A DNA stretch of 64,000 nt from assembly GCF_021134715.1 (NCBI RefSeq), contig NC_060023.1:744001-808000 (forward strand), in the 5' to 3' direction. Positions within the stretch are counted from its first letter, which is position 1. Each line of letters begins with the position of its first letter. Under the pieces are notes generated by a model that did no database searches, was not told where the DNA came from, and saw only the letters and a list, made by a program, of their open reading frames with translations. This stretch comes from Daphnia pulex (Eukaryota; Arthropoda; Branchiopoda; Diplostraca; Daphniidae). Of the stretch, positions 16,151 through 56,051 are shown piece after piece. The translations under genes were made by a program, and so were the position numbers.

Positions 16151-17919
16151 TGAGAGCAATGGTCTGTAGTCTGAACTTATCTGTTTACTACTCTACGCAC
16201 AACTGAAAAATAAATTTCTTTTGGGGGACAAAGTTGTTCTACTTGTCGATGCAAACTGTCAAAAACTGACGAGCCATGGAGAAGGCTGTCAAAAATTGAT
16301 TGGGTCAGAGATTCAAGTTAGCATATTATATTTGACATCATGTTACAAATACAACTGATAACTAGCCTACTGATTGAATTTGGTAGGAATTAGTATCGAA
16401 CCGGATAAAACTTTCCGTCAGCCGCCGATCAACATGACAAAGACCGAATGACGTACACTCAGTCCTCAGTACAGACTCAGACTCAGCACAAAATTTGAAT
16501 AAACATTTCCCTAACGTGAACTTACATCATCACGCACAATCGATGACAGATTGACAGTTGGTTCACAGAGATTCTGAGAATGACAGGATTGACATTCTCA
16601 TAGTTGCAGTAACAACTTCAAGCTTTATAAATCAATTCAAGAATGCATGTTATGACTGGAATATTGAAAAATACAACACTGAGAATTATTTACTAAAATT
16701 GTTTATATTTATTTTTATTTATATCCACACACGGGCATGACCACCAGACTCTATGATGGATAAATGGCATCTAGCGATAGAGATTAACAACTGCATATTT
16801 CGTCTGCTCATCAGCATTTGCATAGAAATTTCGGAGGAATGGAATCGGAGGCTCGGAGCACAGTTGAAGAAAGATTTGATGGAAGATAGAAGCATGGACA
16901 AAGCATCATGGCCGAAGCACCTAAAACTATTTCTTGAAAGCAAGTAAATACATGTCTTTTGGTCAAGTGGTCAAGTCTTTCAGCAGACTTAATTCAGTGA
17001 GATTTGTTCTTGAAAAGTGGAGGGGAAAATGCCAGGTGGTGTGATGAAAAGCCACATGACCATGTGATCATGTATAATTGGAAAAGGAAAACTATCAAAC
17101 AATCAAGTATTTCTGTTTTTCAGATGAAGAAAAACTAAATAATTAAAATATTCATTGTTTGCCAATGTATTCCAGAAACTGTACATGCGAAAGATGGCAT
17201 CACTGAATCAGAAACTAGACGGTACATCAGATATCAATCTAGTTTTATTACGATTGTAACCCAACTTCTTGTGTTAATGAAGGATACTGGCCTACATTGT
17301 TTCCTTAATTTGCCATGCACAAGAAAAAAATTACGAGAAAAAATGTTGGCAATTAAAGAGTGTTTCTTTTTATTTTACAGTGATTGGGCGTCCACGAGAA
17401 AGCTGAAAACCTTGGAAGTTTTTGTTTTTCATCACCTCTGGTTGCATCATCATCTCCATCTAGGACATCAAGCTCCCTGAGTAAGTGAAATACCGATTCA
17501 ACATTCAATTTCTCATAGTCTTAAGTGTGCTGTCTGCCTGTATATGCTAGCTAGGACTTGATTTTAATTCGATACTGTTGTTCAGGGCTTTTTTCTTTCT
17601 TTTGTGAAGCCATTTACTGCGAATTTTTACTGCTTCCTTGCATTCAGTTCTCGATAGATTTGTTTCAATTGAATATCGCCCCCAACCCACCTCGGCTACA
17701 TGTCGTTCAAAATGTTGTCATGAAGGCTCGAGATCTTGGGGCAATTTCTGCGTTGTGTACAACACTGCGTTTGCTTTTTTTCAGCGTTATCCATTGTATT
17801 CACTCTTAGACAAATCAAAAATTGTTTAACCGTTTCATATCACAAATCTCAAGAACTGATCTTCGTAAAGTTAGGCAATTTGCAGCCTCCTCTTAACACA
17901 TCAGTCTAATTATTTTGCT
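16151..17919. other. Gene-poor stretch upstream of IR-A
   Basis: About 1.8 kb between the IR-A start and the 3' end of the coiled-coil gene. Several open stretches of 60-85 codons exist on the plus strand (for example 16753-16947 and 17271-17480), but none shows a domain, signal peptide or convincing splice pattern. I call no gene. Confidence 0.4.
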
Positions 17920-19206
17920 TTACAATCCTGAAAGTTGTTTTGCTTTCCTTTTCAAATCTTTGCCTTTCTCTTTGAGGTTTTCTGCATGTTCTTTGAGAAT
18001 GGTGGCTCTCTTGTACAATTGGGATCCTGTGCTTTGAAGTAATTTGATGAACTCGAGTTCTTCTCGCGATAGTGGTTGAATTCCAGTTTTCTTCTTAACC
18101 CACCGATCATACCAATAGTCTCGTCCGTAACTTGGGCTTGGTTTGAATTTGTCCCACGTCCCGCCCACCTTTGCCTCCGCTTCCGCAGCTCCTTTTTTGG
18201 CATCCGGAATGGCTTGTTGCAGAGCCGTAAGAGCTTCCGCTAGCGCTGCCAGCTGTTCGTCAGCCAACCTTTTCGCTTTTTGCCCGGAACGCAGCGTATC
18301 CTCACGAATCTGCCACATTATCCGGTTTTCGCTTTGCAAAGCTTCGAATTTCGTTCGCCACATCGTGGCTTCCTGTTTGGCTTCCTCGTTTTGGGTTTCT
18401 AATGAGAAGGAAGTGGCGAATTGCTCATCAGACAGCTCAGGATCCAAATGGCTTAATTTGTTCAATTGAATTTCAAGGTTTGTGGTGACTGAATCCAGGT
18501 TCTGCGTCAGGAGTTCGTTTTCTTGTTCCAGTGAGTCCACTTCAAATACTTTGATTGACAGGGCCTTTTTGTGGTTTCTCACAACGTTTTCCAACTCCGC
18601 AATTTCTTTCCTGAGCTGGGACTCGGCGACCTCCCATTCCAAAACAGTTTCACTATGTAGGACCTTTTCCTTCTCCAACTTTTCGATTCGGGATTGAAGT
18701 ATAGACAACTGGTTTTCAGTAGCCAAGTTGTTGGCGATCGGAACTGACGGGGGAAAAGTCTTGTGAGCCTCTGCCATTCGTTGATTCTTTTCCTGCAAGC
18801 TCACCAATGCCTTTTTCAGATCGTTATTCTCCTGCCGTAATTGCGATTCGGTTATGTGGCGATCCCATTCACTCTCGGAGGCCATTTCTTGAAAGCCCTG
18901 ATCCAACTTTTCATTGTCTTTTGGGGTTTCTTCCACATCATTCGTTATGACTGTGCTCAGGTTTTGAAATTGCTTTTCACATCGATCGATTTCTCGTTTG
19001 TTAAATCGATCATCATTTTCGAGCTTGTCAACTTTGCCTTCGGGTACTGTCGCCACTAAATGGTGAACGTCTGGTTGGTTTGGGACTGGTTCCTGTTTGG
19101 TTTTCCGTTGGAAGAAATCGGTCAGTTTGAATCCGATCCAAGCGAATGCGGGAAATAAAAATCCGAGTATCAGCATCACGATAAATGGCATCGCGATCAT
19201 TGTCAT
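17920..19206 (-). CDS. Membrane-anchored coiled-coil protein, intronless
   Basis: Uninterrupted 428-residue frame with no intron, unlike every other intact gene in the window. Residues about 4-27 (from MTMIAMPFIVMLILGFLFPA) form one hydrophobic segment, a signal anchor or uncleaved signal. About residues 70-330 are rich in E/K/Q/L with heptad-like spacing (ENDDRFNKREIDRCEKQF; RIEKLEKEKVLHSETVLEWE), indicating a long coiled coil. The C-terminal 100 residues are basic with an aromatic patch YGRDYWYDRW and an amphipathic end rich in Lys and Leu. A TATATAAG (19258-19265) sits 52 bp upstream of the ATG, so it is likely expressed. I recognise no named family; a Golgi/ER tether-like or cytoskeletal-linker role is only a guess from the architecture. 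Confidence 0.75.
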   Translation of the reverse strand: MTMIAMPFIVMLILGFLFPAFAWIGFKLTDFFQRKTKQEPVPNQPDVHHLVATVPEGKVDKLENDDRFNKREIDRCEKQFQNLSTVITNDVEETPKDNEKLDQGFQEMASESEWDRHITESQLRQENNDLKKALVSLQEKNQRMAEAHKTFPPSVPIANNLATENQLSILQSRIEKLEKEKVLHSETVLEWEVAESQLRKEIAELENVVRNHKKALSIKVFEVDSLEQENELLTQNLDSVTTNLEIQLNKLSHLDPELSDEQFATSFSLETQNEEAKQEATMWRTKFEALQSENRIMWQIREDTLRSGQKAKRLADEQLAALAEALTALQQAIPDAKKGAAEAEAKVGGTWDKFKPSPSYGRDYWYDRWVKKKTGIQPLSREELEFIKLLQSTGSQLYKRATILKEHAENLKEKGKDLKRKAKQLSGL

Positions 19207-19256
19207 TTATCGAAATTCTAGTTGTTGATTGTTATCGATGGGCTTGCCCCTCTTAT

Positions 19257-19266
19257 GCTTATATAG
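19257..19266 (-). promoter_or_regulatory. TATA box of the coiled-coil gene
   Basis: Read on the minus strand, CTATATAAGC lies about 52-61 bp before the ATG at 19206, a good core promoter position. Confidence 0.6.
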
Positions 19267-19689
19267 ACTCGTACCGAGATTAGTGAATCCGCTTGTCATC
19301 CTACGTAGCTCTTTTTGCAAAAAGTTACATTTTTTGAAGTCGTGCTTTTTAGTCATTAGGAAAATGAAATATTTTGGGTTTTAACCCACATTGTTCTCAT
19401 TAAAATTTTATTTGAAAAATAAATTTTGATGTTCATTTCACACATTTTTAAATGGGATCTGTGCGTAGCAGGTAGAGTGGTTAGGCAACTACGTAACCTC
19501 GGCCGTTGTAGTGACAAATCGACAAATCGTTTAATATTGATCGGTTGAACTTAAAACTTTTAACGAATTTAATTACGAGTAAAGTACTACAGTGAACAAA
19601 TCTTGTTTCAGTTTACGCGCATTGCAAACCTTTTGTGTTGCTCAAGCCTGCCCAGCAAGCGTAGATAGCACATACGAATTCAATCAAGA

Positions 19690-20165
19690 GCTTAATTAGG
19701 GCCCCCTTCTGGCCACGCGGAAGTATAACTGTCACTTATTGTGCCGTGCTCCATTTGCGGAACACCTAATAGATCAGAGTTTGTTAGTGAATTTGGTGCT
19801 GACCCCCTTTGTTTGCCCCATGGGTTTTTTTCCCCTCTTTTGAATGATGCCAAGTCATTACTTTTCTGGAAATTTTGAGAAGCTCCAGTGTAGAATGGAT
19901 AGAGCACAAGTCTGATAGGCACCGTTAGAGTTTGCTTCTCCTACAATGGCCCAATTAGCTGTTCCAGTCTTCAGCTGCAAATCAACTCGTAGGACACCAG
20001 TGCTACCAGCAATACCCCAATAAGCGAAATAGTATCTTCTTCCTGCTGGAGTGGGGACGACGAAAAAGTACTAGGGGTAAAGGCGTTTCCCACATTGAGT
20101 TTGACAGAACCAAATGGAACAGGTGTTGGCTGTAGTCGAATAGCTAACCGTCATTTGAGCATTTT
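19690..20165 (-). pseudogene. Decayed C1q-domain gene fragment
   Basis: On the minus strand, pieces of a C1q domain can be read in different frames: PVPFGSVKLNVGNAF, then FVVPTPAGRRYYFAYWGIAG and LQLKTGTANWAIVGEANSN. These match the C1q head of the next gene (NVGTALNP, APTPGKYYFAFSGI, GTADWILVGEGYG) but need at least one frameshift, and they lose similarity after EANSN. No signal peptide exon or C-terminal beta strand is visible. This is a dead tandem copy just downstream of the long-stalk C1q gene. Confidence 0.75.
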
Positions 20166-20331
20166 GATTTCTATATTGTTGTAGAACATTATCGAGAAAG
20201 AACGCGGAAGAAATCCATTTAAAAGTAAAATGCCTACTTTTTATTTATTCGTTCACCTCACACAAGTTATATTTTCGTATTCATCGTCTGTAGATAAAAA
20301 CAGCTACATGGGACGACCGTACAATAAAAAA

Positions 20332-23300
20332 TCAAACTGTTAATTCGTTCTCTTCCACTAGCCAACCGACATAATTAAAATAATTATGTAAAACATTATC
20401 GTGAATTCTTCCTTCTGATAAGTATAGCCTAACTTGGTCGCCTTTGACAAGTTCCAATGTAGCATGCATGGAAAAAGTCTTGAAGGTGGTGTCACCGTAC
20501 CCTTCTCCTACTAGGATCCAATCCGCTGTTCCAGTCTTCATCATCTGCAACAGAACTCTTGCTTTGACGCCGCTATCACTAATACCCGAAAATGCGAAAT
20601 AATATTTCCCTGGTGTAGGGGCGACGAATATTCCAGTGGCAGGGTTAAGGGCAGTTCCCACATTGAGTTTGATTGGATTAAATTGAATGGTGGTTAGGGC
20701 AGCCGAATAAACATTCGTCATTTTAGCGTGGAAATAAATAGCTGTAGATTTTACGTCGACAGTGCCGATCATTTTCTGCAACTCTATTTCATATGAAGAG
20801 GTCGAACGAGAGAAAAAGAAAAGTTATGTTTTATATACTGCGTGGAATACTGTAGGCGAGTAGGCCTATGTGTAAAAAATATTGAACGAATTATTTTACG
20901 GTACCTGAATCGGTTGTTTTAGTAAAATCGCAATAGACGTTTTTGACTTGTTTGTTGTCCATGATGGAGAAGATTCCGCTTTTGACGAATCCGATAGTCT
21001 TGAGGTCTCCACATGAGGTGGGGATTGTACCAAGAGAACTGGGAGTAGTAATTGCTATACAAAATTGTAAAAATGAATTATTTTTCCTTTAAATTTTTCG
21101 AAAATTTGTCAAAATATTTTTAGTTTGAAGCTGTTTTTTCGGCCTTACTATTTAAAGCAGTATTAATTGGGTCCAGCGCAGTTTTGTCGGCCTTATCGTC
21201 CAGCGCAGTTTTGTCGGCCTTATCGTCCAGCGCAGTTTTGTCGGCCTTAGCGTCCAACGCAGTTTTGTCGGCCTTATCGTCCAGGGCTGTTTTGTCGGCC
21301 TTATCGTCCAGCGCAGTTTTGTCGGCCTTATCGTCCAGGGCTGTTTTGTCGGCCTTATCGTCCAGGGCTGTTTTGTCGGCCTTATCGTCCAGGGCTGTTT
21401 TGTCGGCCTTATCGTCCAGGGCTGTTTTGTCGGCCTTAGCGTCCAACGCAGTTTTGTCGGCCTTATCGTCCAGCGCAGTTTTGTCGGCCTTATCGTCCAG
21501 GGCTGTTTTGTCGGCCTTATCGTCCAGGGCTGTTTTGTCGGCCTTATCGTCCAGGGCTGTTTTGTCGGCCTTAGCGTCCAACGCAGTTTTGTCGGCCTTA
21601 TCGTCCAGGGCTGTTTTGTCGGCCTTATCGTCCAGGGCTGTTTTGTCGGCCTTAGCGTCCAGGGCTGTTTTGTCGGCCTTATCGTCCAGGGCTGTTTTGT
21701 CGGCCTTAGCGTCCAACGCAGTTTTGTCGGCCTTATCGTCCAGGGCTGTTTTGTCGGCCTTAGCGTCCAACGCAGTTTTGTCGGCCTTATCGTCCAGGGC
21801 TGTTTTGTCGGCCTTATCGTCCAGGGCCGTTTTGTCGGCCTTATCGTCCAGGGCTGTTTTGTCGGCCTTAGCGTCCAACGCAGTTTTGTCGGCCTTATCG
21901 TCCAGGGCTGTTTTGTCGGCCTTATCGTCCAGGGCTGTTTTGTCGGCCTTATCGTCCAGGGCCGTTTTGTCGGCCTTATCGTCCAGGGCTGTTTTGTCGG
22001 CCTTATCGTCCAGGGCTGTTTTGTCGGCCTTATCGTCCAGGGCTGTTTTGTCGGCCTTAGCGTCCAACGCAGTTTTGTCGGCCTTATCGTCCAGGGCTGT
22101 TTTGTCGGCCTTAGCGTCCAGGGCTGTTTTGTCGGCCTTAGCGTCCAGCGCAGTTTTGTCGGCCTTAGCGTCCAGCGCAGTTTTGTCGGCCTTATCGTCC
22201 AGCGCAGTTTTGTCGGCCTTATCGTCCAGGGCTGTTTTGTCGGCCTTAGCGTCCAACGCAGTTTTGTCGGCCTTATCGTCCAGGGCTGTTTTGTCGGCCT
22301 TATCGTCCAGGGCCGTTTTGTCGGCCTTATCGTCCAGGGCTGTTTTGTCGGCCTTAGCGTCCAACGCAGTTTTGTCGGCCTTATCGTCCAGGGCTGTTTT
22401 GTCGGCCTTATCGTCCAGGGCTGTTTTGTCGGCCTTATCGTCCAGGGCCGTTTTGTCGGCCTTATCGTCCAGGGCTGTTTTGTCGGCCTTATCGTCCAGG
22501 GCTGTTTTGTCGGCCTTATCGTCCAGGGCTGTTTTGTCGGCCTTAGCGTCCAACGCAGTTTTGTCGGCCTTATCGTCCAGGGCTGTTTTGTCGGCCTTAT
22601 CGTCCAGGGCTGTTTTGTCGGCCTTAGCGTCCAGCGCAGTTTTGTCGGCCTTAGCGTCCAGCGCAGTTTTGTCGGCCTTATCGTCCAGCGCAGTTTTGTC
22701 GGCCTTATCGTCCAGGGCTGTTTTGTCGGCCTTATCGTCCAGGGCTGTTTTGTCGGCCTTATCGTCCAGGGCTGTTTTGTCGGCCTTAGCGTCCAACGCA
22801 GTTTTGTCGGCCTTATCGTCCAGGGCTGTTTTGTCGGCCTTATCGTCCAGGGCTGTTTTGTCGGCCTTATCGTCCAGGGCTGTTTTGTCGGCCTTAGCGT
22901 CCAACGCAGTTTTGTCGGCCTTATCGTCCAGGGCTGTTTTGTCGGCCTTAGCGTCCAACGCAGTTTTGTCGGCCTTATCGTCCAGGGCTGTTTTGTCGGC
23001 CTTAGCGTCCAACGCAGTTTTGTCGGCCTTATCGTCCAGGGCTGTTTTGTCGGCCTTATCGTCCAGGGCTGTTTTGTCGGCCTTAGCGTCCAGCGCAGTT
23101 TTGTCGGCCTTAGCGTCCAGCGCAGTTTTGTCGGCCTTATCGTCCAGCGCAGTTTTGTCGGCCTTATCGTCCAGGGCTGTTTTGTCGGCCTTATCGTCCA
23201 GGGCTGTTTTGTCGGCCTTATCGTCCAGGGCTGTTTTGTCGGCCTTAGCGTCCAACGCAGTTTTGTCGGCCTTATCGTCCAGGGCTGTTTTGTCGGCCTT

Positions 23301-24694
23301 ATCGTCCAGGGCTGTTTTGTCGGCCTTATCGTCCAGGGCTGTTTTGTCGGCCTTAGCGTCCAGGGCTGTTTTGTCGGCCTTATCGTCCAGCGCAGTTTTG
23401 TCGGCCTTATCGTCCAGGGCTGTTTTGTCGGCCTTATCGTCCAGGGCTGTTTTGTCGGCCTTATCGTCCAGGGCTGTTTTGTCGGCCTTATCGTCCAGGG
23501 CTGTTTTGTCGGCCTTAGCGTCCAGCGCAGTTTTGTCGGCCTTATCGTCCAGGGCTGTTTTGTCGGCCTTATCGTCCAGCGCAGTTTTGTCGGCCTTAGC
23601 GTCCAGCGCAGTTTTGTCGGCCTTATCGTCCAGGGCTGTTTTGTCGGCCTTATCGTCCAGCGCAGTTTTGTCGGCCTTATCGTCCAGGGCTGTTTTGTCG
23701 GCCTTATCGTCCAGGGCTGTTTTGTCGGCCTTAGCGTCCAACGCAGTTTTGTCGGCCTTATCGTCCAGAGCTGTTTTGTCGGCCTTAGTTTCCAGCGCAG
23801 TTTTGTCGGCCTTAGTGTCTTAAGCAGTTTGCATCGCTGTTAAAATTAATTCTTTCATTCAATTAAAATTTCGATAAATTTACTCACTTTCCAATGCTGT
23901 ACCCAATTTTGAAACATCGTCGTTGGTTTTCTCTAGATCAGTTTGAGAGGCTTTAGTCGCCAACTTGTCATTTGTTGCTGTAAATAACAATAGTAATTTT
24001 TAATTTTTTACATTTAGTCCCAATATAATTTATTTAAGTTATTGTTAGATAACTTTACTTTTCAGTGTCTCTTTCAAATCCGAAACTGTTTTTTGCGTTT
24101 TTGATAAATTGTCATTTGTGTCTGTAAAAGTCGATAGAAAGTTAGAAACATTTGTATTTTATTAAATATTTAACGATTAGGATTATTCTTTTTTTTTATT
24201 TAATAATATTTTAGTGTGACGGGTTTGCTAAAATTAATCTTAAAATCTTACCTTTCAGTTGCCTTGCTAAACTAGCAGTCGTTGCTTCAAGTTGTTTGAT
24301 TCTTAAAAAAATGGCACCCTGATAGAAAAGATCCCTAATGCTCGGATTATTTTTGAATTCAACAGTTTCGCCAGACTGCTGAGCTGCCGTTTCATCATTA
24401 ACGTGTTTAATGGGTTGATTGTTAAACGTTGAAGTGTAGGGAATGTAATAGGGGTGATAAGGGTCAAAGTTATTGACGGGTATTTGGCCATAAACAGCAA
24501 AGAGCCAAACCGAAAAAACAGCAATCAACTATAATGTATCAATTGACGAAAAAAAGAAAAGAAAAACAACAATCATCTTTATTGTCAAATCATGATTAAA
24601 TCATAAACGATGGTAGGCAGACTTAAATTCAATTGTTAAGTTCAATCTTTTCTTAATAGTATTTGTAAAGAAATCTTACCGGTATCTTTGTCAT
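20332..24694 (-). CDS. Secreted C1q-domain protein with about 98-unit nonapeptide stalk (C1q-1)
   Basis: Exons in transcript order: 24694-24680 (MTKIP), 24528-24250, 24122-24063, 23981-23891, about 23837-21150 (repeat exon), 21055-20905, about 20786-20332. Signal peptide MTKIPLIAVFSVWLFAVYG; a 105-residue linker ending in coiled coil (IRLKQLEATTASLARQLK in style); two short helical exons (TNDNLSKTQKTVSDLKETLK; KASQTDLEKTNDDVSKLG); then about 98 copies of ADKTALD(D/A)K; a Cys segment (SCGDLKTIGF, SGIFSIMDN, VYCDF); and a C1q head (STAIYFHAK, NVGTALNPATGIFVAPTPGK, YYFAFSGI, YFNYVGWLVE). C1q domains trimerise, so the stalk is probably a trimeric rod. An in-frame TAA at 23820-23822 precedes the first repeat if the CAG acceptor at 23838 is used; an AAG acceptor just after it skips the stop and keeps phase. 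Function may be secreted lectin-like or structural. Confidence 0.75.
21163..23818 (-). repeat. 27-bp tandem repeat, about 98 copies, coding for ADKTALD(D/A)K
   Basis: Uninterrupted array with unit length exactly 27 bp (nine codons). Units differ mainly at one codon (GAT or GCT, giving D or A) and at synonymous positions (GCG/GCC/GCT; CTG/TTG). Blocks of units recur: the distinctive run of three units with the 'tccagcgcag' spelling starts at 22141, 22627 and 23086, spacings of 486 and 459 bp (18 and 17 units). This points to recent expansion by unequal exchange of multi-unit blocks. The opposite strand is also open throughout because the unit is a multiple of three without stops. Confidence 0.97.
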
Positions 24695-24748
24695 CGTTTG
24701 CTTTTAAATATGAAACTACAAAAACTACTAGCGAGAAGAGGCTCGACC

Positions 24749-24756
24749 TTTATATA
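24749..24756 (-). promoter_or_regulatory. TATA box of C1q-1
   Basis: TATATAAA on the minus strand, 55 bp upstream of the ATG at 24694. Confidence 0.6.
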
Positions 24757-26981
24757 CTTTCCATTATTGGGCGTTTCTTACGTTCTCGTCCATTTCTCGT
24801 TTGTAGAACAGGTTCCCTTGCCGTTTTAACCTTCCTGAAGTAGAAAATTGTTATTTGCCTCTCAATATGTAAATTACATACCTTGCTCCCTTTTATTTTG
24901 GTTCTAATAAGAGCTGGTTACATGATATGCCCGCAGAAAGTTCAAGTCCGGTCACTTTTTTTTCTGTTGTTTGGAATTTCTTTGGGCGGATGAAATATGC
25001 GAGGCACAAGTTAGTTATGATGTGTCGATTATCTCGATTCGCTTAGTATTTGTTTTTATTCCAGATGCGGGAAACGAAATTGATTCGAGAGACTCGAATA
25101 AAATGGAATGCCTATAAATATTGCAGGGTCGCCGTTAATTGATTTATAAATGAAAGAGAATTGTTTTTCTTTCCTGGCTTCAAATCCATTTGAGGTGGAA
25201 ACTATTCCTGATCAATCATGTTATCGCAATTTGTTTAGTGTCGGTTTCGTCGTGAATGAACTTTAACCGAAATTTTTACGATATTAAATAGTATCGTTTC
25301 TCTGACCTAACGATTGCCGAATCATAAAGAATATCCGCGTTCAAAACAAAATAATAAAAAAAAAAAAAACAACAAAACAAGTTTTCGACTCGGTGAAGAG
25401 TTGGATGACCATTTGACCGTGAAACGTGATGTTAGGAAAAATAAGAAAACTTCTCCTTCGCTCGAAGGCTCGTAACCATGAATCTAAATATGTGTAGAAT
25501 GATAGAAATAGAAATATAGTAGTCATACAGCTTCTTGTCGAAGGTCAGGGTCTAGACACAAGCCATGATAACACATTCAAAAAATTCTGGATTTCAACTT
25601 TTGCTAGTCAATTTTCTTCTACTTTATTTTATTATTTTTTTCTCGATTTTTAGTTAAAGGAAATACTTTTCACGCCATCCAACCGATCCCCGAGTTCCTC
25701 TTTGTACGGGCCTCGGCCTCTATAGTTTTATCGCGACACCTTTGAGACACCTTTGGACATCAACTTTGATTGTTGTGCGCCTCTTAAATTGCCTTTGCAA
25801 TCTTTCTCTTGTGTGCTGGTCGAAACTTTGGCGCAGAGAAACTTCGTCGGATTTGGTCTGCACAAGGTTACTTTACGATTTTACATAATCAGAAACGTGA
25901 AGTGACTGCGAGGAAAAATCCCGCCCCTGATGAAACATGACCCCCAGGCACAGCGAATTACTGCCAGGTTATTTTGCTGACTTTTTTGTTTTTCTTTTTT
26001 TTGTTTTTTATTTTATTTTGTATACTGTTTTTTGTTTAGTATTGTGGTATTCCCCGCTTTTCAATGCCAAGTAGCCAATAAGAAGAAAACTTCTTGATTA
26101 AATTATCTATAGATCTTAGACTGAGCCTAATATGGTTTGTAGTTGAAGTATATCCAGTTAATTCATTCCTTTTTATCGCAGGTGCAATGGATAACCGACT
26201 GAACGTGATCGCTGTACTAGACTGACAAGTTCCTTCGGCGCTATCTTCGTTTCCCGACCCGAATTCTTAGGTCGGTGTCCATTCGCCTCATCATTCCACA
26301 TAGCTGTTTATTTGAAGTAATTGATGGCAATCAATTACAATCAATCTGGAAGGCGTCCAAGATCGATCGACTCTGTGACCCACGTCTGTCGGTGCTTCAA
26401 GGCCGCTCTAAGCCGTGCCAAAAAATATGCCCATGACGGAGCGAATGACCGTAATTTCATTCGTTACATAATATACGCATACATTATAAGACGGAAGTGT
26501 TCATCCCGAGATGCCTAAGATATTCCGTTCTGTATTCAATTTCGGCTGTACATTAATTCTTTGTTTATTTCTCTTAGACATCTGGCATTGGCAGGGACAT
26601 ATCGACTGTTGGACCGTTGGTGTAGACGAGCCTGGCTGCTGGCATGCCAGGACTGCTGGCGCAGATGCAAGGTAATTTTATTAGATAACATCATCATAAT
26701 TAAGTTATTATAGCGCTCGATGTGAATGCGAACCTATTGTTTTTATTAGGAATTTGGTTTCAATTGACGATAAGCTTGAAATCAAATGTTAGTTACTAAA
26801 CCACAAAATAATAGGGGGAAATCAATTTGTTAATTTTCTATCGGCGATTCGATTAGGCTTGCATTGTGGTCCGCTCTTGCCGACAGCCCCTCACCGTCGC
26901 GTGATTGATGAATATTTGACTATCGTGTTGTCTGATATGTGATTGGAAATTCAACTGTACAAAGCGGGGAAATGGACATAA
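24757..26981. other. Gene-poor stretch between C1q-1 and IR-B
   Basis: About 2.2 kb. Poly-A and poly-T tracts occur near 25350 and 25990. On the plus strand, an open stretch at 26321-26518 and a piece bounded by CTCTTAG and GTAATT at about 26577-26671 could be exons of an unknown gene, but neither shows a recognisable domain. Nothing else is called. Confidence 0.35.
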
Positions 26982-29412
26982 TTAACCGCGACGACCACGA
27001 TGCAGAGAAATGATTTTCTCGCAAAGAAAAGCCAGAAAAGAAAGACTCAGTCCGACCAGTAAAACGACAAATGCTCCGGTCAAATTTTTCAGGGAAAGTG
27101 GCAATTGTTTCTTTTTCTTGCTTTCCATCGGCGGTTTTCCGTTGCATTGAGGAGGCATGGGGCGGAACCAGGTATCCCAGTAGTCGATTATTCCAGTTTG
27201 TTGAAGCTCCAATATCCTTTTTTTTATTAACACACGTGAAACAAAATTTAGACAAAAGGGGAATGACCGGGAATGACCCTGAACTCTACTTGCTTACCCT
27301 TGGGTTATGATTTTGGTGTGGGGACTGGTTTTCGGAAGGGCGAACGATGACATGATTCCGATGAATCTTTCTTTTGCCATTTGCAAGTTGCACTTTCCAG
27401 TCTTTTTAACAAGCGATCTCCCACTCAACCGGACCGAAATGGTGGGGGTACTTTTCGGATCGTAATCCGGAAAAGAACTTTACAAATCCGGACTAGGTCT
27501 AATCTGTTCAGAATCGCAAGGCGATTCCAACGGAATTAAGTCCGGATTTTTATCTTTTCCCGTTCACGAGATAATCACGGTTGAAAATCGTGAAATATCA
27601 CGAAAACCCAAAGTCTCCACGTCCGACTACATCGCTTTTAGCCGTATATTCGGCTTGTAAAAAAAAACTAATTGATACAAAATGTAGCCCTTTCATCCCT
27701 CTTTCAGAATCCAAAAGGATTTTTTATAATTCTTTGAGATGTTTGAGATATCACGATTTTCGTGATACCCCCATTTCGACACATTTTCCAAGCATTTTAT
27801 TCGGCGTTGCCGATTGCCGTATATGTGACTTCGCCCCCACTCCTTCGCTTTTTCCATTGTTTCCTATGTATCAAGTCCCATCTGTATCGATATACAAGGC
27901 CTTGATACATAGGAAACAGGGGAAAAGCGAAGGAGTGGACAGTCAATTTTACAATTAGCAACTTGCCTGGAATTCTTCAGCAAACATCCTAGCTCAATGT
28001 AGACATTTCTATGTTCTGGTTTGATATTTCGAAGGCATTCAAACGGCATGACGCATCGAGAATTCGGGGTGGAATCCAGTTTTCTTCGTAATGTTGCGAA
28101 AAGGGTGTTGTTGTTGGTCTGTCGCACACAATGTAAATAAGTTGTTGTCAAAGTTCATCGACATTTTTTTTTTTACTTGCCGAAAACAAAATAGTTACGA
28201 ATCCATCTTCTCTGGCGAGTAAATTGATATCGCCACTATTGATAATGTCGTAGACAGAATTGATGAGCGGGTGATTGATTGGCTTTACGACATAAGTGAA
28301 GAGAGTCGACGTGTAGGCCTGGACGGAGATGAAAGCGGCCAGGGTCCAAACGCCAGCGACCAGTCGGTAAGGTAGTCGTTTCGATTTACAAGATCCACCT
28401 AATCAATCATGGAAAAGTTGTGACTTATTAATGCTGTGTGTCGTACATCAGCTAAACAATTATGCCATTTTATTTCGTTGTATTTGTTATAACCTTGCGA
28501 TAGCAAATTGCCGAAAACGTAGAGATATTCTTTTCCGGTTCCGACTTTGGTGATTTTTTTTTCAGCCGGTGGATTTTCGTTTGAACTAAATGTAGTTTCG
28601 AGTGCGGAATGATATTCCAAGTAGCGCTGGATCACATTCAAAGCTGTGATGACGCAAACGATCGATACTCCTAGTCCCAGCCAGACCTATCGATCGAATT
28701 ATAATCGATGCTGTTTAATGCGAAAATTGATAGTCTGAAGAAATTGAAATGTTTAAACCGGCCACTGGAAAGGTTTGACGACGGCGTTGATGTTGGCCGT
28801 TTCATCGGGGACGGGAATGAGGAAAGCGAAAAAGTCGTAAGCCCATGGCAAGGTCAGATCAACGATCTTGCTGGTCTGCAGTGTGGGAACCGTATCGTGG
28901 ACCAGCAAATCGCATTGCTGTGAAAGATCAGATTATTTTTTAATTGGATATCAGTAAGAAACGTAACGAACTCAACTTGATCCAACAAATAGCTGAAAAG
29001 TCCGCGTTCTTTTTCCGTGGCTTCCTGTCTGTTTTCGGTCACTCGAACCATTTCGTAGCTGGAGGTAAAATAAAATAAGGTATACGTGGTTAGTTAATGT
29101 GTTTAAGAAGCCAGTCAATTGGAATTGGTTTTGTTAGTTACGTGAAATTTAAACGGGCCGTCAGGTAGTCGAGGAGTACCCCACCTTTGAGAGGTCCCAG
29201 CAATCCTTTGGGGTTTCCACTCCAACGTGTCTTCAATCGATTGTTTTATGTCAAGTTAATTGATCTGAATCGCAATGATTAATGTTTGAATTTATGTTCC
29301 TTACCCAGATGACGCGAAGGTGTTGGCCGCTGAGCCGATTGGACGTCGATGATGTGCAGCGAATAAATATGGTGATCGCAGCTGAAAAGATGATGGAAGG
29401 TAAGAGCGACAT
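26982..29412 (-). pseudogene. Ionotropic-receptor gene IR-B, disrupted
   Basis: Paralogue of IR-C and IR-D. Readable pieces: signal peptide MSLLPSIIFSAAITIF and S1 start at 29412-29305, further S1 exons (the ETANINAVVKPFQWP exon at 28918-28760), M1 exon 28680-28500, M3 exon about 28400-28160 (FVQAYTSTLFTYVVKP), S2 piece 28150-27980, and the M4 exon 27233-26982 (LTGAFVVLLVGLSLSFLAFL). About 550 bp of foreign sequence (27405-27955) replaces the exon that in IR-D encodes the stretch after KTGK. The donor that should follow the YIEL codons is CT instead of GT. The frame also shifts at an 11-A run near 28161-28174. The promoter and signal peptide look preserved, so a truncated transcript is possible. 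It reads Thr where IR-A has the ligand-binding Arg. Confidence 0.75.
27405..27955. mobile_element. Foldback/MITE-like insertion inside IR-B
   Basis: This block has no counterpart in IR-A, C or D and interrupts coding similarity. It contains a long inverted repeat, 27837-27875 against 27901-27938 (38-39 bp arms, about four differences, 25-nt loop), plus shorter palindromic phrases around ATCACGATTTTCGTGAT (near 27750) and CGGATCGTAATCCGGA (near 27455). There is no transposase frame. Exact ends and a target duplication could not be fixed by eye. A non-autonomous foldback element is the likeliest reading. Confidence 0.5.
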
Positions 29413-31567: not shown

Positions 31568-32641
31568 CTAAACAGAGTTTTCGAAATCTTGTTGTAGAAG
31601 CCAACCAGTGAAGTGATTGTGGTGCTGGAAATTGTCAAATACGTAAGTGTCTGTCGACTTGTACTTGATGGCCAGCCACACTTGATCTCCTGATTTAAGA
31701 TTGAGTGTCGATTCCATATCGTACGTTTCGAATTGTCCCATGTTGCCAACTTCGTCAGCCAGAGCCAAACCGATTTCGTTGCCGTTCGAATACAAGGCTA
31801 GACCGATCTCTCGTCTTGTTGTAGCGGTATCATCGGTAAAGGGGAAATCGACCATTCCGGATACGGAGAAGAAGTAAGTCCCTGTGACGGGTGCCGTGAA
31901 GATGCCAGTGTCTATATTCATAGCGTTTCCGACGTTGTTCATAACGCGTTCGAATGGGATCGGAGTGTTTGTTAGATTGAAATTGGTTCCCTTTTGAACG
32001 TAAAAGTAGACTGGCACGGATTTGACATCGTTATAGCCGATCCATCTCTGTCCTATCACTACTACGAAATTGGAATATCAGTTGAGTTAGAATCGTCCTA
32101 GATTGAGAGGTGGTCGGAGTCGAATTTAAATCAATTTTGGATTTACCTGGATTTTCAGAGATTTTGGAGAAATCGCAATAGACTGTTTCGACCATGTTTA
32201 TACCCATGATGGAATAGAGTCCGCTCCAAATGTGCCCAAAAGACCACAGGTCGCCACAGGAATTTGGCATTCCGTTGATTAACTTTGGTTGGATGTCGTT
32301 TACGCTTTTCGGGGTAAACGGCGTTGGATTCTGCAGTGTGGTGATAATCGATTCTTGCCGATGAAGTTGGGCTTCTAGTCCTGTAATTTGTGCCTTTAGT
32401 TCAGACACTTCCGCTTGCAGTCTCGTTTGTTTTACCTCCATATCTTCTTTGAATAGGGTCTGCAAGAATAATTTAGTAGTTAAACAATTGAATTGATTTT
32501 GGGATCTTTTAAAAGATTTCTTACAAACGTGTCGGTTAGCTGTTGCAATTTATCCTCCAAATCGATGGCAGCGGCGGTCGAACATGTCGACCAAGCCAAA
32601 AATAAAACAGCTACTTGAAATATTATTAAGCGACGAACCAT
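31568..32641 (-). CDS. Secreted C1q-domain protein (C1q-2)
   Basis: Three exons: 32641-32524, 32460-32147, 32059-31568. The signal peptide (MVRRLIIFQVAVLFLAWSTC) is followed by a short coiled coil (LEDKLQQLTDT; KQTRLQAEVSELKAQITGLE), a Cys segment (SCGDLWSFGHIWSGLYSIMG, VYCDF) and a C1q head (VPVYFYVQKG, NVGNAMNIDTGIFTAPVTGT, YFFSVSGMV, STLNLKSGDQVW, HNHFTGWLLQ). It is secreted and probably trimeric. A TATA element at 32708-32716 and a possible AATAAA at 31500-31505 (minus) flank the gene. All exons are open. It occupies the position where the body of IR-E would be expected. Confidence 0.9.
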
Positions 32642-33857: not shown

Positions 33858-34974
33858 TTAACAATCAAAAACATCTTCTTCGAGCAGGTAGCCAACAAAG
33901 TCGCTGAAATTATTGCCGTCGGCATCGTGAATGACTCCCAGAAGGTGTACCAAACGAATTTGATCGTCTTTGGCGAGTTGCAGAGTCGACTGGAGTGCCA
34001 TCGTGTTCCAAGCTGCGCCGTGGGCTTCTCCGATTTTGATCCAATCGGCCGATCCCACCTTCATCTGCAGCTGAACTTTGACGTAAGTGTCCCAACCCAA
34101 ACCCGTGAAAGCGAAATAATATCTGCCCGCTTTCGGAGCGACAAACACTCCGGTTGATGGGTTCAAGGCATTGCCAATATTCAGCCTTATTAGGTTGTAG
34201 GGAACAACAGTGTTGACTGCGTCGTAGAGTCCAACTCTCTGCGCGTGGTAGGAAACGGGCCAAGACTTGATATCAGCGTAACCAATCCACGTCTGAAAGT
34301 CTGGAGTGAATTAACTTGTTACTAAATTTGATTTGAATAGAAGGTGCCGTATTGCAACTTACTCGGATCGGTTGCGGCGAGAGTAAAATCGCAGAAAACA
34401 GTTTCGACGGTTTTGACTCCCTTAATCAGAAACATTCCACTCAAAGTGTGGCCCATAATTTTAAGGTCCACGCAGGATTTGGGTAATTGAGTTGTCCCTT
34501 GCCTCAGACTAGTAGCGTTGCTGTAATTTCGACTTTGCTGCTGGGCAGTTAACAGCGGCTCTTGTGCCCCGCTTGTGCCCGAATTGCTTGAGCTTTCATT
34601 TGATTCACTTCAGTCTCAAGTCGAATCATTTTAGCTTCCAGTATTTCCTAATTGTTTTTGAAATAATGTTTAAATCCAATAACTCTGTAAAACTGAAAAT
34701 GAAGTTTACTTGATGTTGAACTTTAAGTTCTAGGGATTCCAAACGGCTGTCCTTGGCAGCTAAAATTTGCTCCATTTTCATCTTATCAGCGCCCGTTGAA
34801 ACAATTTAATGAAGTGTTATTATATTAAGTGTAATTCAAATCATTATCGCTTACATAGTTGATCCTAAGTTGTTCCAGTTGCTCGTCCACTGTTGGGCCA
34901 GCGATGACATGCGAATTCAACCAGGCTACGACCAGTAGACTTAATTGAATAGCTACAGGGAAGCGTCGAATCAT
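33858..34974 (-). CDS. C1q-domain protein (C1q-3), frameshifted in the stalk exon
   Basis: Exons: 34974-34858 (signal peptide MIRRFPVAIQLSLLVVAWLN), about 34777-34712 (MKMEQILAAKDSRLESLELK, coiled coil), 34646-34362, 34302-33858. The last exon is a complete C1q head (NIGNALNPSTGVFVAPKAGR, YYFAFTGLG, GSADWIKIGEAHG, FSDFVGYLLEED). In the third exon the coiled-coil frame (EILEAKMIRLETEVNQ) ends at TAA about 34545, while the Cys segment (LPKSCVDLKIMG, SGMFLIKG, VFCDF) is in another frame that itself has stops upstream. One inserted base or a two-base deletion near 34570-34605 would be needed to join them. It is therefore a recent pseudogene, an allele, or a sequence error. A TATAAAA lies about 65 bp upstream of the ATG. 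Confidence 0.75.
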
Positions 34975-45538: not shown

Positions 45539-47530
45539 TCAGTTAATTGTCCATTCCATTTGATTCCGATTGAGAGTTGGCTGACTCTTTGGAAGTTTGC
45601 CACCAGGATCCCATACCGATTGGTGTGTGTTGGAATCTTCTTCAATGTCCTTTAACACAAGAATATTTTTTAGTAGATGTGAAACGATTTTGTTTGGTAC
45701 CTGGGTTAACGAATAAGAGAACAGCAACTGGTTGATGAGATGTTCTTCTATACTTGGTAACCTTGAGATGCGTTTAGGAGCTGGTTTTACTGGCTCCAAG
45801 CGCTTCCGTTTCATTGAGTTTTGTTGATTGGCCAATTCCGGAAGAATTGCTGCTTGACTGCACGGCGATCTGAACTTCGGAATGATTTCTTGGTTGCTTT
45901 CTACGTTTGTTGAATTGACAAATGCAGCGGCTTCTTGAGGATTTTCTTTCGAAGCTTCCTGGATTTCTGGCGACGATGATAAATTTCCAGAAGAAGAGAA
46001 GTTGGTTTGTTTAAGTTGACTCGGAAAAGAGTTAAGTGTTTCCAGCGATGCAGCTGGCCTTCCCGAGGGGAAAAAAAGAAAGGTAGGAATATCCTTTTCT
46101 TTGGAGCCGGCTGGCGGAATCCTAATAATTGAATCTTTAGTTTTTAGACAATTGAATGTGTCAGGAACTTCTGCTTGATAAGTAGGAGTTTCTTGATGAC
46201 TAAGAGAGTGAGGAGCTTCTGCCGGATTGGCTGGAGCTTTTTGAAGATTGAGAGTACCAGGAGCTTCTGCCGGAGTAGCTGGAGCTTCTAGAATAATGAG
46301 AGGACGAGGAGCTTCTGCCGGAGTAGCTGGAGCTTCTTGAATAATGAGTGTGCAAGCAGTTTTTTCGTTGCTAGAGGAGCTCAAGAGATTTTTGGACTCC
46401 ACTGCATCTACACCATCTAAGTTTGCAAATTTGAGGTTAGTTGCTTTCAGCTCGTCTTCAAACCTTTTTTCGTCTTTGTTTCCACTGGATTTGACCGGAA
46501 TATCTGAGATTGATAGCCCTTTTTTTGGTCGTTGTTGGAGACTGGCTGTTCCAGGCTCCTTTTCCATCGGGACTTCTTTTGACTGGGCTGATTTGACGTT
46601 TTGGTCGCTGTAGCAACTTTTCGCGTTCGATGATGGGATTTTTTCTGCTCCTTCCAGATTTGCTGAGTTTTCTAACTTTGAAACAAAGGAATTATTTTCT
46701 TTTATTTCGTTCCTTTCAAACCTTTTTTTGTCGGGATATCCGTCTGGCCCATCCGGAGAATCCGAGAGTGAGTCTCCTTTTTTCGGTGGGTGAGGGAGAC
46801 TGGCCGTTCCAGTCTCTTTTTCTTCCGTCTGGATATTTTCTTTTGACTGGTATGAAGGGGTGTTTTGAAAACTACAGCTTGTTGTCGTAAGCGACGACAC
46901 TTCTAGTGGAGTTGGGTTTGGCACTAATACTGCTGCAAATTGAGATGTTGAGAGGGTTTTGAGAATTGACTCTATTACTGGATTTGTTTGAGAAGCTGGC
47001 TCCTGAGAAGCTGTTGGTGATAAGTTGACATCTCCTGGAGCGACGGGCACTGAAAAGGCTGTTGAGATGGCTGCGATCACCTGACTGATTATGTCCCGAT
47101 TGAGTTGTGCTTGGGTTGCTGCCTGGTTTGCTGCCTGGGTTGCTGCCTGATGTTGGAGAATTTGGAGCATTCTTTCTCTGTCCTTCTCCCATTCTTCGTC
47201 ATCTGCTTCCTTTTCGAGTTTGTCTAACCATTCTCTTCGTTTTTTCTTTAAGATGTGAATTTTGGCGACAATAACATCGTCCATTGTTTGGTACATGGTG
47301 TCGATGTCTGCATTGATCTCTTCTTGGTCTTCGCCTTCTTTGTACATTTCAGCCTGGACCCTTTTTGAGAATATCTCATAAGTTTTGTAGAATCCATCTA
47401 GCTTTTTTTCTAATTTTTCGACTTCGATAAACGCTTCCAACGTCATTTCTGTTGATTTGTACGTTTCGACGAGGTTAATGATACGGGTGATATGCTTTTT
47501 AATTAAAGTTCTTGCGTAATTTGGAGCCAT
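45539..47530 (-). CDS. Gag-like protein of the LTR element (663 aa)
   Basis: Single open frame from ATG at 47530. Residues 1-130 are charged and helical (TLIKKHITRIINLVETYKST; KLEKKLDGFYKTYEIFSKRV), in the style of the N-terminal region of BEL/Pao gag proteins. A Gln/Ala run follows (HQAATQAANQAATQAQ), then a long Ser/Pro/Glu-rich region with four degenerate copies of an about 21-residue unit around APATPAEAP (residues about 395-475). There is no CCHC zinc knuckle, protease or polymerase. The C-terminus (SVWDPGGKLPKSQPT) may come from the original 3' coding end, which would fit an internal deletion that removed pol. Its function would be capsid formation in trans with an autonomous relative. 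Confidence 0.7.
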   Translation of the reverse strand: MAPNYARTLIKKHITRIINLVETYKSTEMTLEAFIEVEKLEKKLDGFYKTYEIFSKRVQAEMYKEGEDQEEINADIDTMYQTMDDVIVAKIHILKKKRREWLDKLEKEADDEEWEKDRERMLQILQHQAATQAANQAATQAQLNRDIISQVIAAISTAFSVPVAPGDVNLSPTASQEPASQTNPVIESILKTLSTSQFAAVLVPNPTPLEVSSLTTTSCSFQNTPSYQSKENIQTEEKETGTASLPHPPKKGDSLSDSPDGPDGYPDKKRFERNEIKENNSFVSKLENSANLEGAEKIPSSNAKSCYSDQNVKSAQSKEVPMEKEPGTASLQQRPKKGLSISDIPVKSSGNKDEKRFEDELKATNLKFANLDGVDAVESKNLLSSSSNEKTACTLIIQEAPATPAEAPRPLIILEAPATPAEAPGTLNLQKAPANPAEAPHSLSHQETPTYQAEVPDTFNCLKTKDSIIRIPPAGSKEKDIPTFLFFPSGRPAASLETLNSFPSQLKQTNFSSSGNLSSSPEIQEASKENPQEAAAFVNSTNVESNQEIIPKFRSPCSQAAILPELANQQNSMKRKRLEPVKPAPKRISRLPSIEEHLINQLLFSYSLTQVPNKIVSHLLKNILVLKDIEEDSNTHQSVWDPGGKLPKSQPTLNRNQMEWTIN

Positions 47531-54590: not shown

Positions 54591-54669
54591 TTACTTGTCG
54601 AATCAAATATTTTTTCCGCGCTGTAATCCAAATTTACTTTGAGATTCATTTTAGAGTTCAAAAGTTAAG

Positions 54670-56051
54670 ATGAAAATCACTGTAAAGATATTGGCCATAT
54701 TCCTGACGCTCTTGGTATTCGCAAATTCGCAGCTGATGGATAAAATGAATAGAGCAATTGTTGTAGAATCTAGTGCTGAAAAAATGAATAGAGCAATCGA
54801 GGCAGCCAATGAAGATAGAAAACTTTTGTACAGCCAGATGGCTCCCGATTTGATCGACATTCCTTATCCAGGAGTAGAAAACTATACGCACTACGCGGCG
54901 GCTCGTTTAGGGCTCTTGCTTGTAAATGCTAGGCCGTTGATGTCTGAACTCGGCCCGGTAATAAACGACGTCACATCTTTCAAATACCCCATCGCCACTA
55001 AGCAATGCGGGAACATCAATTCGAGCGTGAGAAGCGTTTTCATTGCTGTGATTTCTGCCACCGGCAATTTCGAAAAACGAAGCAAAATTCGGGAAACTTG
55101 GAAAAATCACATCGATTTGGTCCTACAAAAAGGTCTGCTCGGCAAGATTCATTTCGGTTTCATTTTAGGACAGCCAGAAAACGCCAATGAACTCCAAGGA
55201 AAATCCAAGGATATCCAAGAAAAAATACAAGATGAAAACGATAATTTTGGAGATATCATTCAGATAGAAATGTTGGATTTTTATCGAAATTTACCGTTGA
55301 AGATGGCAGGACTACTCAATTGGGTTATTACCAACTGCCGTCAAGTTGATTTCGTGCTCAAAATCGACGACGACATGTACCTCAACGTACACGTTCTAGC
55401 CCATTTCGTCAAAACCTACTACGAGTCGGGGAAAATGACGATTTTCGGCCAGAGTGATCGTGTCGATAGCAAATCCAACAACTGGGGTCCACAGCGAAGT
55501 ATACAATGTCAAAAAGCTATCATTTCAGTATCTGAATAACAATTATTACTTCGATTAAGGTGCCTCGCAATGGAAAATCTCGCTGGACGAGTGGCCCTGG
55601 AATACCTATCCCAATTACGTAAACGGCCCCGTCTATTTGATGCACAAAACAGCGATCGTTCCGCTTTTGGCCGCCATTCAAACGACGCCCATTATGCCTT
55701 TCGAGAACATCTATCTGACTGGAATCTGTTCAGAGAAAGCCGGAGTCAGAACGCAATATTCCTCTGGACCCAACAGGTTTAACCCATTCATGAAATTCCT
55801 TTCTCAATCTAAATCTAATAATACTTTGAATGAATCTGATTATTAGCATTGTGAAAGGATCGGCTTTTTCTAGCAATTGCGACGCGGACAAATATCTGAC
55901 ATGGAACAGCTTCACTGGTGGGATGCCGCACAGCGATATCGACAGCTTTTATCGCAGTAGTTTCAGCTGGTATTCAGTCTATTCATGGTGGCGTTGCACA
56001 CCGAAAGAATCTGTCCAGTTCAACTTTAGAAACGACATGTCGGCGATTTAG
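54670..56051 (+). CDS. GT31 glycosyltransferase 1 (beta-1,3-GalT/GlcNAcT-like)
   Basis: Predicted Golgi-lumen transferase adding a hexose in beta-1,3 linkage. Three coding exons: 54670-55499, 55560-55779, about 55850-56051, plus a spliced 5' UTR exon ending at 54584 (donor GTAAAT; acceptor TTTTAG at 54650-54654). The N-terminal hydrophobic segment (ILAIFLTLLVFANSQ) is a signal or signal anchor. GT31 motifs: FIAVISATGNFEKRSKIRETW, FGFILG, the DXD motif KIDDDMYLNV, and the acceptor-side block FENIYLTGIC. That last block normally reads E-D-(V/I); here Asp is Asn, so catalysis may be weakened. A duplicated KMNRAI phrase follows the signal segment and is absent from the second copy. AATAAA lies at 56138-56143. 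Confidence 0.88.

Follow-up and report, generated by a model that had tools for sequence, protein, structure and literature searches.

Beta-layer fibres have been reported in prokaryotes and mitochondrial relatives as well as in phages and viruses, and 14 tandem nine-residue units (nonads) are a long natural example (eLife 2016, PMC4786415; this and the other papers cited here stand for the part of their text that was covered). In that paper, the OMP100 motif IENKADKAD, whose beta-layer was crystallised, is divided into positions a-b-c, a K-A-D layer (β1-β2-β3) and positions e-f-g. Lys at β1 together with Lys at e makes up a C-capping network, internal C-capping layers favour a small residue at β2 with Lys at β1, and a second class of layers reads [aliphatic]-A-T-K. 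Among C1q proteins, the coiled coil and not collagen is already the usual type of stalk in oysters (PMC6835236), which corrects the initial annotation of the locus described here, where collagen-like or heptad stalks were taken as the usual ones. Here we report a Daphnia pulex C1q gene on the minus strand of a stretch of 64,000 nucleotides (the window; C7:744001-808000, contig NC_060023.1; coordinates are positions in the window unless another locus is named), in which the C1q head follows an array of 97 nonads. On balance, we think that the family of this gene encodes a secreted homotrimer, with C1q heads carried on an alpha/beta coiled-coil rod of about 70-110 nonads.

The repeat array and its unit

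Tandem Repeats Finder placed the array at 21171-23814, with a period of 27, 97.9 copies, 0% indels and a score of 4427, and its minus-strand frame covers 21120-23819 (899 amino acids, aa). The array contains one partial and 97 full units (69 ADKTALDDK, 27 ADKTALDAK and 1 ADKTALETK, with 8 DNA variants behind them). Thus, the initial annotation counted well in giving about 98 repeats, its word "perfect" was nearly right, and its nine-residue phase lock holds, the spacing with a hydrophobic residue at a being unbroken in 97/97 full units. The order of the units reveals a higher-order duplication (best lag, 18 units), and no Pfam family was found in the array at E ≤ 1. Note that three other frames across the array are likewise open (895-899 aa), so its openness is no evidence by itself. 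Only the minus-strand frame 21120-23819 joins the signal and C1q exons in phase, in gene-model trials that left out the three other open frames, and the array read in another frame, a possibility raised at the outset, was rejected.

We searched the genome (133,188,837 bases, 13 contigs) with five units as the query, which gave 74 matches in four places, all on C7: the window and the three loci below. The array is real, but it belongs to one of four related array genes and is not the lone oddity first described.

C7:716 kb: L009, 69 units
C7:730 kb: L010, 111 units
C7:3.98 Mb: L011, 5 units

L009 is open from its ATG to the C1q stop in all three splicings tried, and in L010 the frame stays open between exon 2 and the stop, a matching ATG exon and splice signals being present. 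In L011 the C1q exon (L011 5351-5858) is split between two frames, so this gene looks damaged; a TAA was flagged there too.

Read from its Leu, the window unit, L-D-(D/A)-K-A-D-K-T-A, matches the OMP100 nonad residue by residue, K-A-D falling on the layer and K on e. All 282 units counted in the four genes have Leu at a and Ala at β2, Lys occupies β1 in 277/282 and Asp β3 in 276/282, and position e is Lys in 268 and Arg in 5 (Lys or Arg in 273/282). The variation falls mostly on the outward c position, where eight residues occur. The unit finder demands Ala at β2 and Leu or Val at a, and a unit without these would end the run; since the runs reach the natural end of the array in three genes, the invariance of Leu and Ala is not due to dropped units. 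In L010, four units change K-A-D-K to L-A-S-Q jointly, giving an aliphatic-Ala-small layer close to the second class of the eLife paper. The sequence marks of an alpha/beta coiled coil are found here: nine-residue spacing with a hydrophobic a, a small β2, and Lys at β1 with Lys or Arg at e.

In the mechanism that we propose, the protein, where expressed, would be secreted as a homotrimer, and a heptad coiled coil at the start of the stalk would nucleate the rod. The 70-110 or so nonads would follow the heptads as an alpha/beta coiled coil, each unit having a, b and c helical, K-A-D in a triangular three-strand beta-layer that replaces d, and e, f and g helical. The three chains would step round the axis at each layer and so become interlocked. 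Such a rod might measure about 120-130 nm for 98 units, a rough estimate from 9 residues per unit, and its far end would bear the trimeric C1q head, which probably binds a surface or microbial ligand.

Gene architecture

The exons connect in phase 1: one signal-like exon and two heptad exons come before the repeat exon, and a short Cys exon and the C1q exon come after it, as follows.

24680..24694, minus strand: exon 1, ATG and first five codons (MTKIP), placed by reading frame and GT donor
24252..24528, minus strand: exon 2, hydrophobic signal-peptide-like segment (LIAVFSVWLFAVYG), judged by eye, then a short N-terminal region with heptads at its end
24059..24121, minus strand: exon 3, heptad coiled-coil segment (DTNDNLSKTQKTVSDLKETLK), register by reading
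23888..23977, minus strand: exon 4, heptads and a lone nonad with the same type of beta-layer (LATKASQTD), register by reading
21149..23818, minus strand: exon 5 (repeat exon), one partial nonad and 97 full ones, with LDPINTALN at the end
20905..21054, minus strand: exon 6, short two-Cys segment (TSCGDLKTIGFVKSGIFSIMDNKQVKNVYCDF)
20332..20783, minus strand: exon 7, C1q head and stop codon, Pfam C1q PF00386, E 2.9e-14

All introns of the gene start with GT and end with AG. By reading, splicing keeps the heptad-to-nonad spacing, and Leu recurs every 7 or 9 residues over the junctions. The C1q domain of exon 7 scored 53.8 bits against a Pfam gathering cut-off of 23.7, and 19 PDB sequences matched this exon at E ≤ 0.001 (C1q, C1q-like, cerebellin, adiponectin, caprin-2 and collagen VIII/X). 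The Pfam search of the C-terminal 201 aa of the window protein gave C1q only, with no match in exon 6 and no YadA_anchor at E ≤ 1, so the protein lacks the mark of a trimeric autotransporter adhesin. A collagen stalk (type I, Gly-X-Y) was also rejected, the longest Gly-X-Y run in the spliced protein being 1. A signal peptide, a non-collagen stalk and a C1q head place the protein among the sC1q-like type II proteins, in the window copy only with the AAG acceptor described below. Together, the in-phase exon chain, the Pfam C1q match and the lack of longer Gly-X-Y runs bear out the secreted C1q architecture without collagen that had been proposed, although the extent proposed with it (21163..24694) includes the array and misses the C1q exon. 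Compared with L009, exon 2 differs in 16/277 alignment columns, three of which are one codon gap; the differences are, by eye, mostly amino-acid-changing, so this exon gives no sign of constraint.

Alternative folds for the array

Several points weigh against a beta-layer rod. Position g is Ala in the window unit, not D, E or Q as in the N-capping layers of the eLife paper, where, in the text covered, tandem layers have been solved only for the MAT type and not for the KAD type (PMC4786415). The codons of the window array are conserved at the synonymous sites of K-A-D-K too, so homogenisation accounts for much of the K-A-D-K conservation. Pooled over the unit variants, 24/55 distinct changes were synonymous against 0.264 expected (p 0.004); singly, the excess had p 0.03 in the window, p 0.10 in L009 and p 0.09 in L010, and there are changes common to several arrays. 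The evidence for selection inside the arrays is thus modest and confounded by homogenisation. A phmmer search of the PDB with a 140-aa piece of the array had no match at E ≤ 1. The array profile, followed up to E 10, had two matches only, NadA (E 0.022) and phage hyaluronidase (E 1.2); these are weak, but NadA4 and phage hyaluronidase are listed as beta-layer proteins (PMC4786415), which is a point in favour of the rod. A different repeat query also gave two matches, NadA (E 0.02) and SkgA (E 1.7), the second of which is unrelated. AlphaFold, given 108 aa of the array as a single chain with a four-row alignment, produced one helix over residues 2-107, with a mean pLDDT of 63. Finally, the window copy itself may be null because of an in-frame TAA.

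The AlphaFold model would agree with a continuous helix acting as a rigid spacer, whether as a charged alpha-helix on its own or within a loosely paired bundle, and so would the mean propensity of the unit, 0.31-0.38 kcal/mol on a helix-propensity scale, which resembles that of coiled-coil and lone-helix controls. However, 114 aa of the Actinobacillus autotransporter L064, a control by motif that has no solved structure and that was run as a single sequence, also came out as one helix (pLDDT 87), so single-chain AlphaFold cannot see layers. The idea of alternating helix and beta-layers, already present in the initial annotation, is supported by the positional match to OMP100, and the single-chain model does not discriminate between it and a plain helix. 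In addition, at 3.6 residues per turn the array has a hydrophobic moment of 0.0, and on a straight helix each Leu would point 180 degrees away from the one before it. A continuous helix would thus have no hydrophobic stripe and would not be amphipathic. Opposite-charge pairs are limited to one or two i to i+4 per nine residues, with none at i+3, unlike in E/K-rich lone helices, and nothing about a continuous helix would explain why Leu and Ala recur unchanged every nine residues. A continuous helix seems to us unlikely.

We regard it as quite improbable that the array does no more than space the C1q head from the N-terminal heptads, as a flexible and largely disordered linker. This would suit the low confidence of the model (pLDDT 63), the high charge and few hydrophobic residues, and the length change tolerated under minisatellite expansion. 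Set against it are the absence of Gly and Pro from the units, the constancy of Leu and Ala throughout the four genes, and the match of the unit to a crystallised motif.

An in-frame stop and the choice of acceptor

The continuous reading frame that had been described for the window copy is interrupted if the CAG acceptor before the repeat exon is used.

23820..23822, minus strand: in-frame TAA, met with the CAG acceptor (exon start 23836), avoided with the AAG acceptor (exon start 23818)

Read from 23836, the CAG acceptor, which is canonical, gives T-M-Q-T-A and then TAA, where the relative L009 has TTA. The AAG acceptor (23818) is a weaker site; it keeps the frame, with one residue out of register. 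The intron before the repeat exon measures 51 nt with CAG and 69 nt with AAG, and neither intron lengths nor branch-point motifs gave a decision between the two.

It is quite possible, although we lean the other way, that the window copy is a pseudogene, in which the repeat exon acquired a nonsense TAA at its start and the array drifts as a minisatellite, a reading compatible with a rod in L009 and L010. A Leu at the TAA site would keep the Leu spacing of seven and then nine, so CAG looks ancestral and the TAA a nonsense change; moreover, AAG has an A before the AG, and the other acceptors read in the window gene are all CAG or TAG. On the other side, AAG restores the frame, and its 69-nt intron resembles those of a C1q paralog, L016, where introns of 59-71 nt separate the downstream exons that were placed. 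The remaining exons are open, and so are the splice sites and every one of the 97 units; the C1q exon differs from that of L009 in only 1/452 bases.

Origin of the array

The window gene lies in a segment of about 9.5 kb (17861-27409) with an inverted duplicate about 48 kb away on the same contig (L009 8519-56). The duplicates are 90-95% identical in two main blocks and include, besides the C1q gene, a 428-aa frame next to it. This frame (17923-19206, minus strand) has no Pfam match, and a 428-aa frame stands in the matching place of L009, where by eye it has a hydrophobic start followed by a coiled coil.

The C1q paralogs next in similarity, L016 and L017, have 63% and 55% identity to the window C1q. 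By script, AG/GT-flanked phase-1 exons of 57-60 nt were found in both (six in L016, three in L017), opening with K-A/V-S or K-A-S/T; when they are joined, the junction between them gives the nonad L-D-A-K-A-S-K-E-D, and eleven residues come after it. In L017 there are also some copies with no AG before the motif. A scan of the loci L016-L042 (27 in all), limited to about 1.5 kb upstream, showed the pattern in L016 and L017 only, with one chance-looking match in L023. The upstream frames of ten loci, inspected by eye, had a single [ILS]-x-T-K-x-D-L motif in four (L020, L021, L022 and L027) and not in six. Judged from these sequences, the single KAS/KAT nonads at the exon junctions of L016 and L017 are plausibly the ancestral state. 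Since single nonads exist there and in window exon 4 (LATKASQTD), the simplest history is that one nonad of the family expanded. The array would have grown as a 27-bp minisatellite within one exon, and the family would offer a stepwise route from a single nonad, through an exon-wise nonad plus hendecad and a short array, to a long array.

The initial annotation suggested a search of phage and bacterial fibre proteins, and the unit occurs there too. Pattern searches for the unit gave 64 and 127 matches, from which 21 viral-contig and 13 genome loci were confirmed. The longest strict runs were six units in L064 and four in L043, with at most two in the other 32 loci. L064, from Actinobacillus, has matching nonads and a YadA anchor at the C-terminus (PF03895, E 3e-18), and the viral contig L043 encodes a tail fibre (phrog_1980, E 8e-97). 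The YadA-anchored protein (L064 310-4344) is rich in KAD/KAN/KAS nonads and carries Pfam DUF4795 in five stretches too. Two repeat queries gave no matches in a phage tblastn with the BLAST low-complexity filter on. In PHROGs, a 303-aa array piece matched phrog_24919 (tail fibre, E 1.6e-28), a score that rests on summed repeats because no single stretch passes alone.

The near-identical units of L043 and L064 are what speaks for acquisition of the array from a phage or bacterial fibre gene. We consider this very improbable, because intermediates exist within the C1q family: the single KAS/KAT nonads of L016, L017 and window exon 4, and the five units of L011. Moreover, the array shares codons with L010 and L011.

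Implications and neighbouring features

Whether an animal lineage independently built secreted C1q trimers on rods of about 70-110 KAD layers, through one-exon minisatellite expansion of nonads of the sister-gene type, seems to us evenly balanced. If so, the beta-layer fold would be extended to secreted animal proteins, with a natural near-perfect repeat for its study, and rod length would differ between clones with repeat number. To our knowledge, such rods would be the longest alpha/beta coiled coils. C1q is a large gene family in this genome (150 matches scored), one Daphnia magna C1q gene shows trans-species polymorphism near parasite-resistance loci (PMC11193740), and C1q genes are among those down-regulated in Daphnia pulex under predator cues (PMC4514973). 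Given the large family and the D. magna polymorphism, stalk length could, as a speculation, be a variable immune trait.

The window contains the following other features.

31571-32077, minus strand: further C1q exon, Pfam E 3.3e-16
33861-34310, minus strand: further C1q exon, Pfam E 1e-10
46211-46348, minus strand: 48-bp tandem repeat within a 684-aa frame, no Pfam match
54655-55536, plus strand: galactosyltransferase-type frame, Pfam PF01762
56993-57853, plus strand: galactosyltransferase-type frame, Pfam PF01762

Comparison with known systems

In the literature searched, which most subscription papers lie outside, we found no animal C1q with nine-residue repeats and no animal nonads in later papers, and no occurrence of ADKTALD was found in paper text. 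The overall architecture of the Daphnia gene is that of the bivalve sC1q-like type II proteins (signal peptide, coiled coil, C1q), whose stalks are coiled coils by COILS, with no nonad array described in the text covered (PMC6835236). Within the genus, which has a large C1q family, the Daphnia magna gene 11F-21.35 (COLFI and C1q) has a short Cys segment before C1q, and exon 6 is similar in place to the COLFI domain ahead of C1q in that gene; a repeat array is unmentioned in the text covered (PMC11193740).

The phage tail fibres and phage hyaluronidase (2C3F, 6X3M; L043) have KADK-type units, in L043 as a run of four, ADKTALDNK. Their runs are short and their ends are Peptidase_S74 or hyaluronidase, whereas the Daphnia protein ends in C1q. 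The stalk of the trimeric autotransporter OMP100 (PDB 5APP) has, within a heptad coiled coil, the same a-b-c-KAD-e-f-g unit with Lys at e; it contains one nonad and a bacterial surface anchor, whereas the long Daphnia genes set 69-111 tandem nonads before an animal C1q head. Tcar0761 (PDB 5APZ), with 14 consecutive MATKDDIAN nonads between heptad segments, resembles the Daphnia array in being long and uninterrupted, but it is prokaryotic, has far fewer units and uses a MAT layer, of the N-capping class, where the Daphnia array uses KAD.

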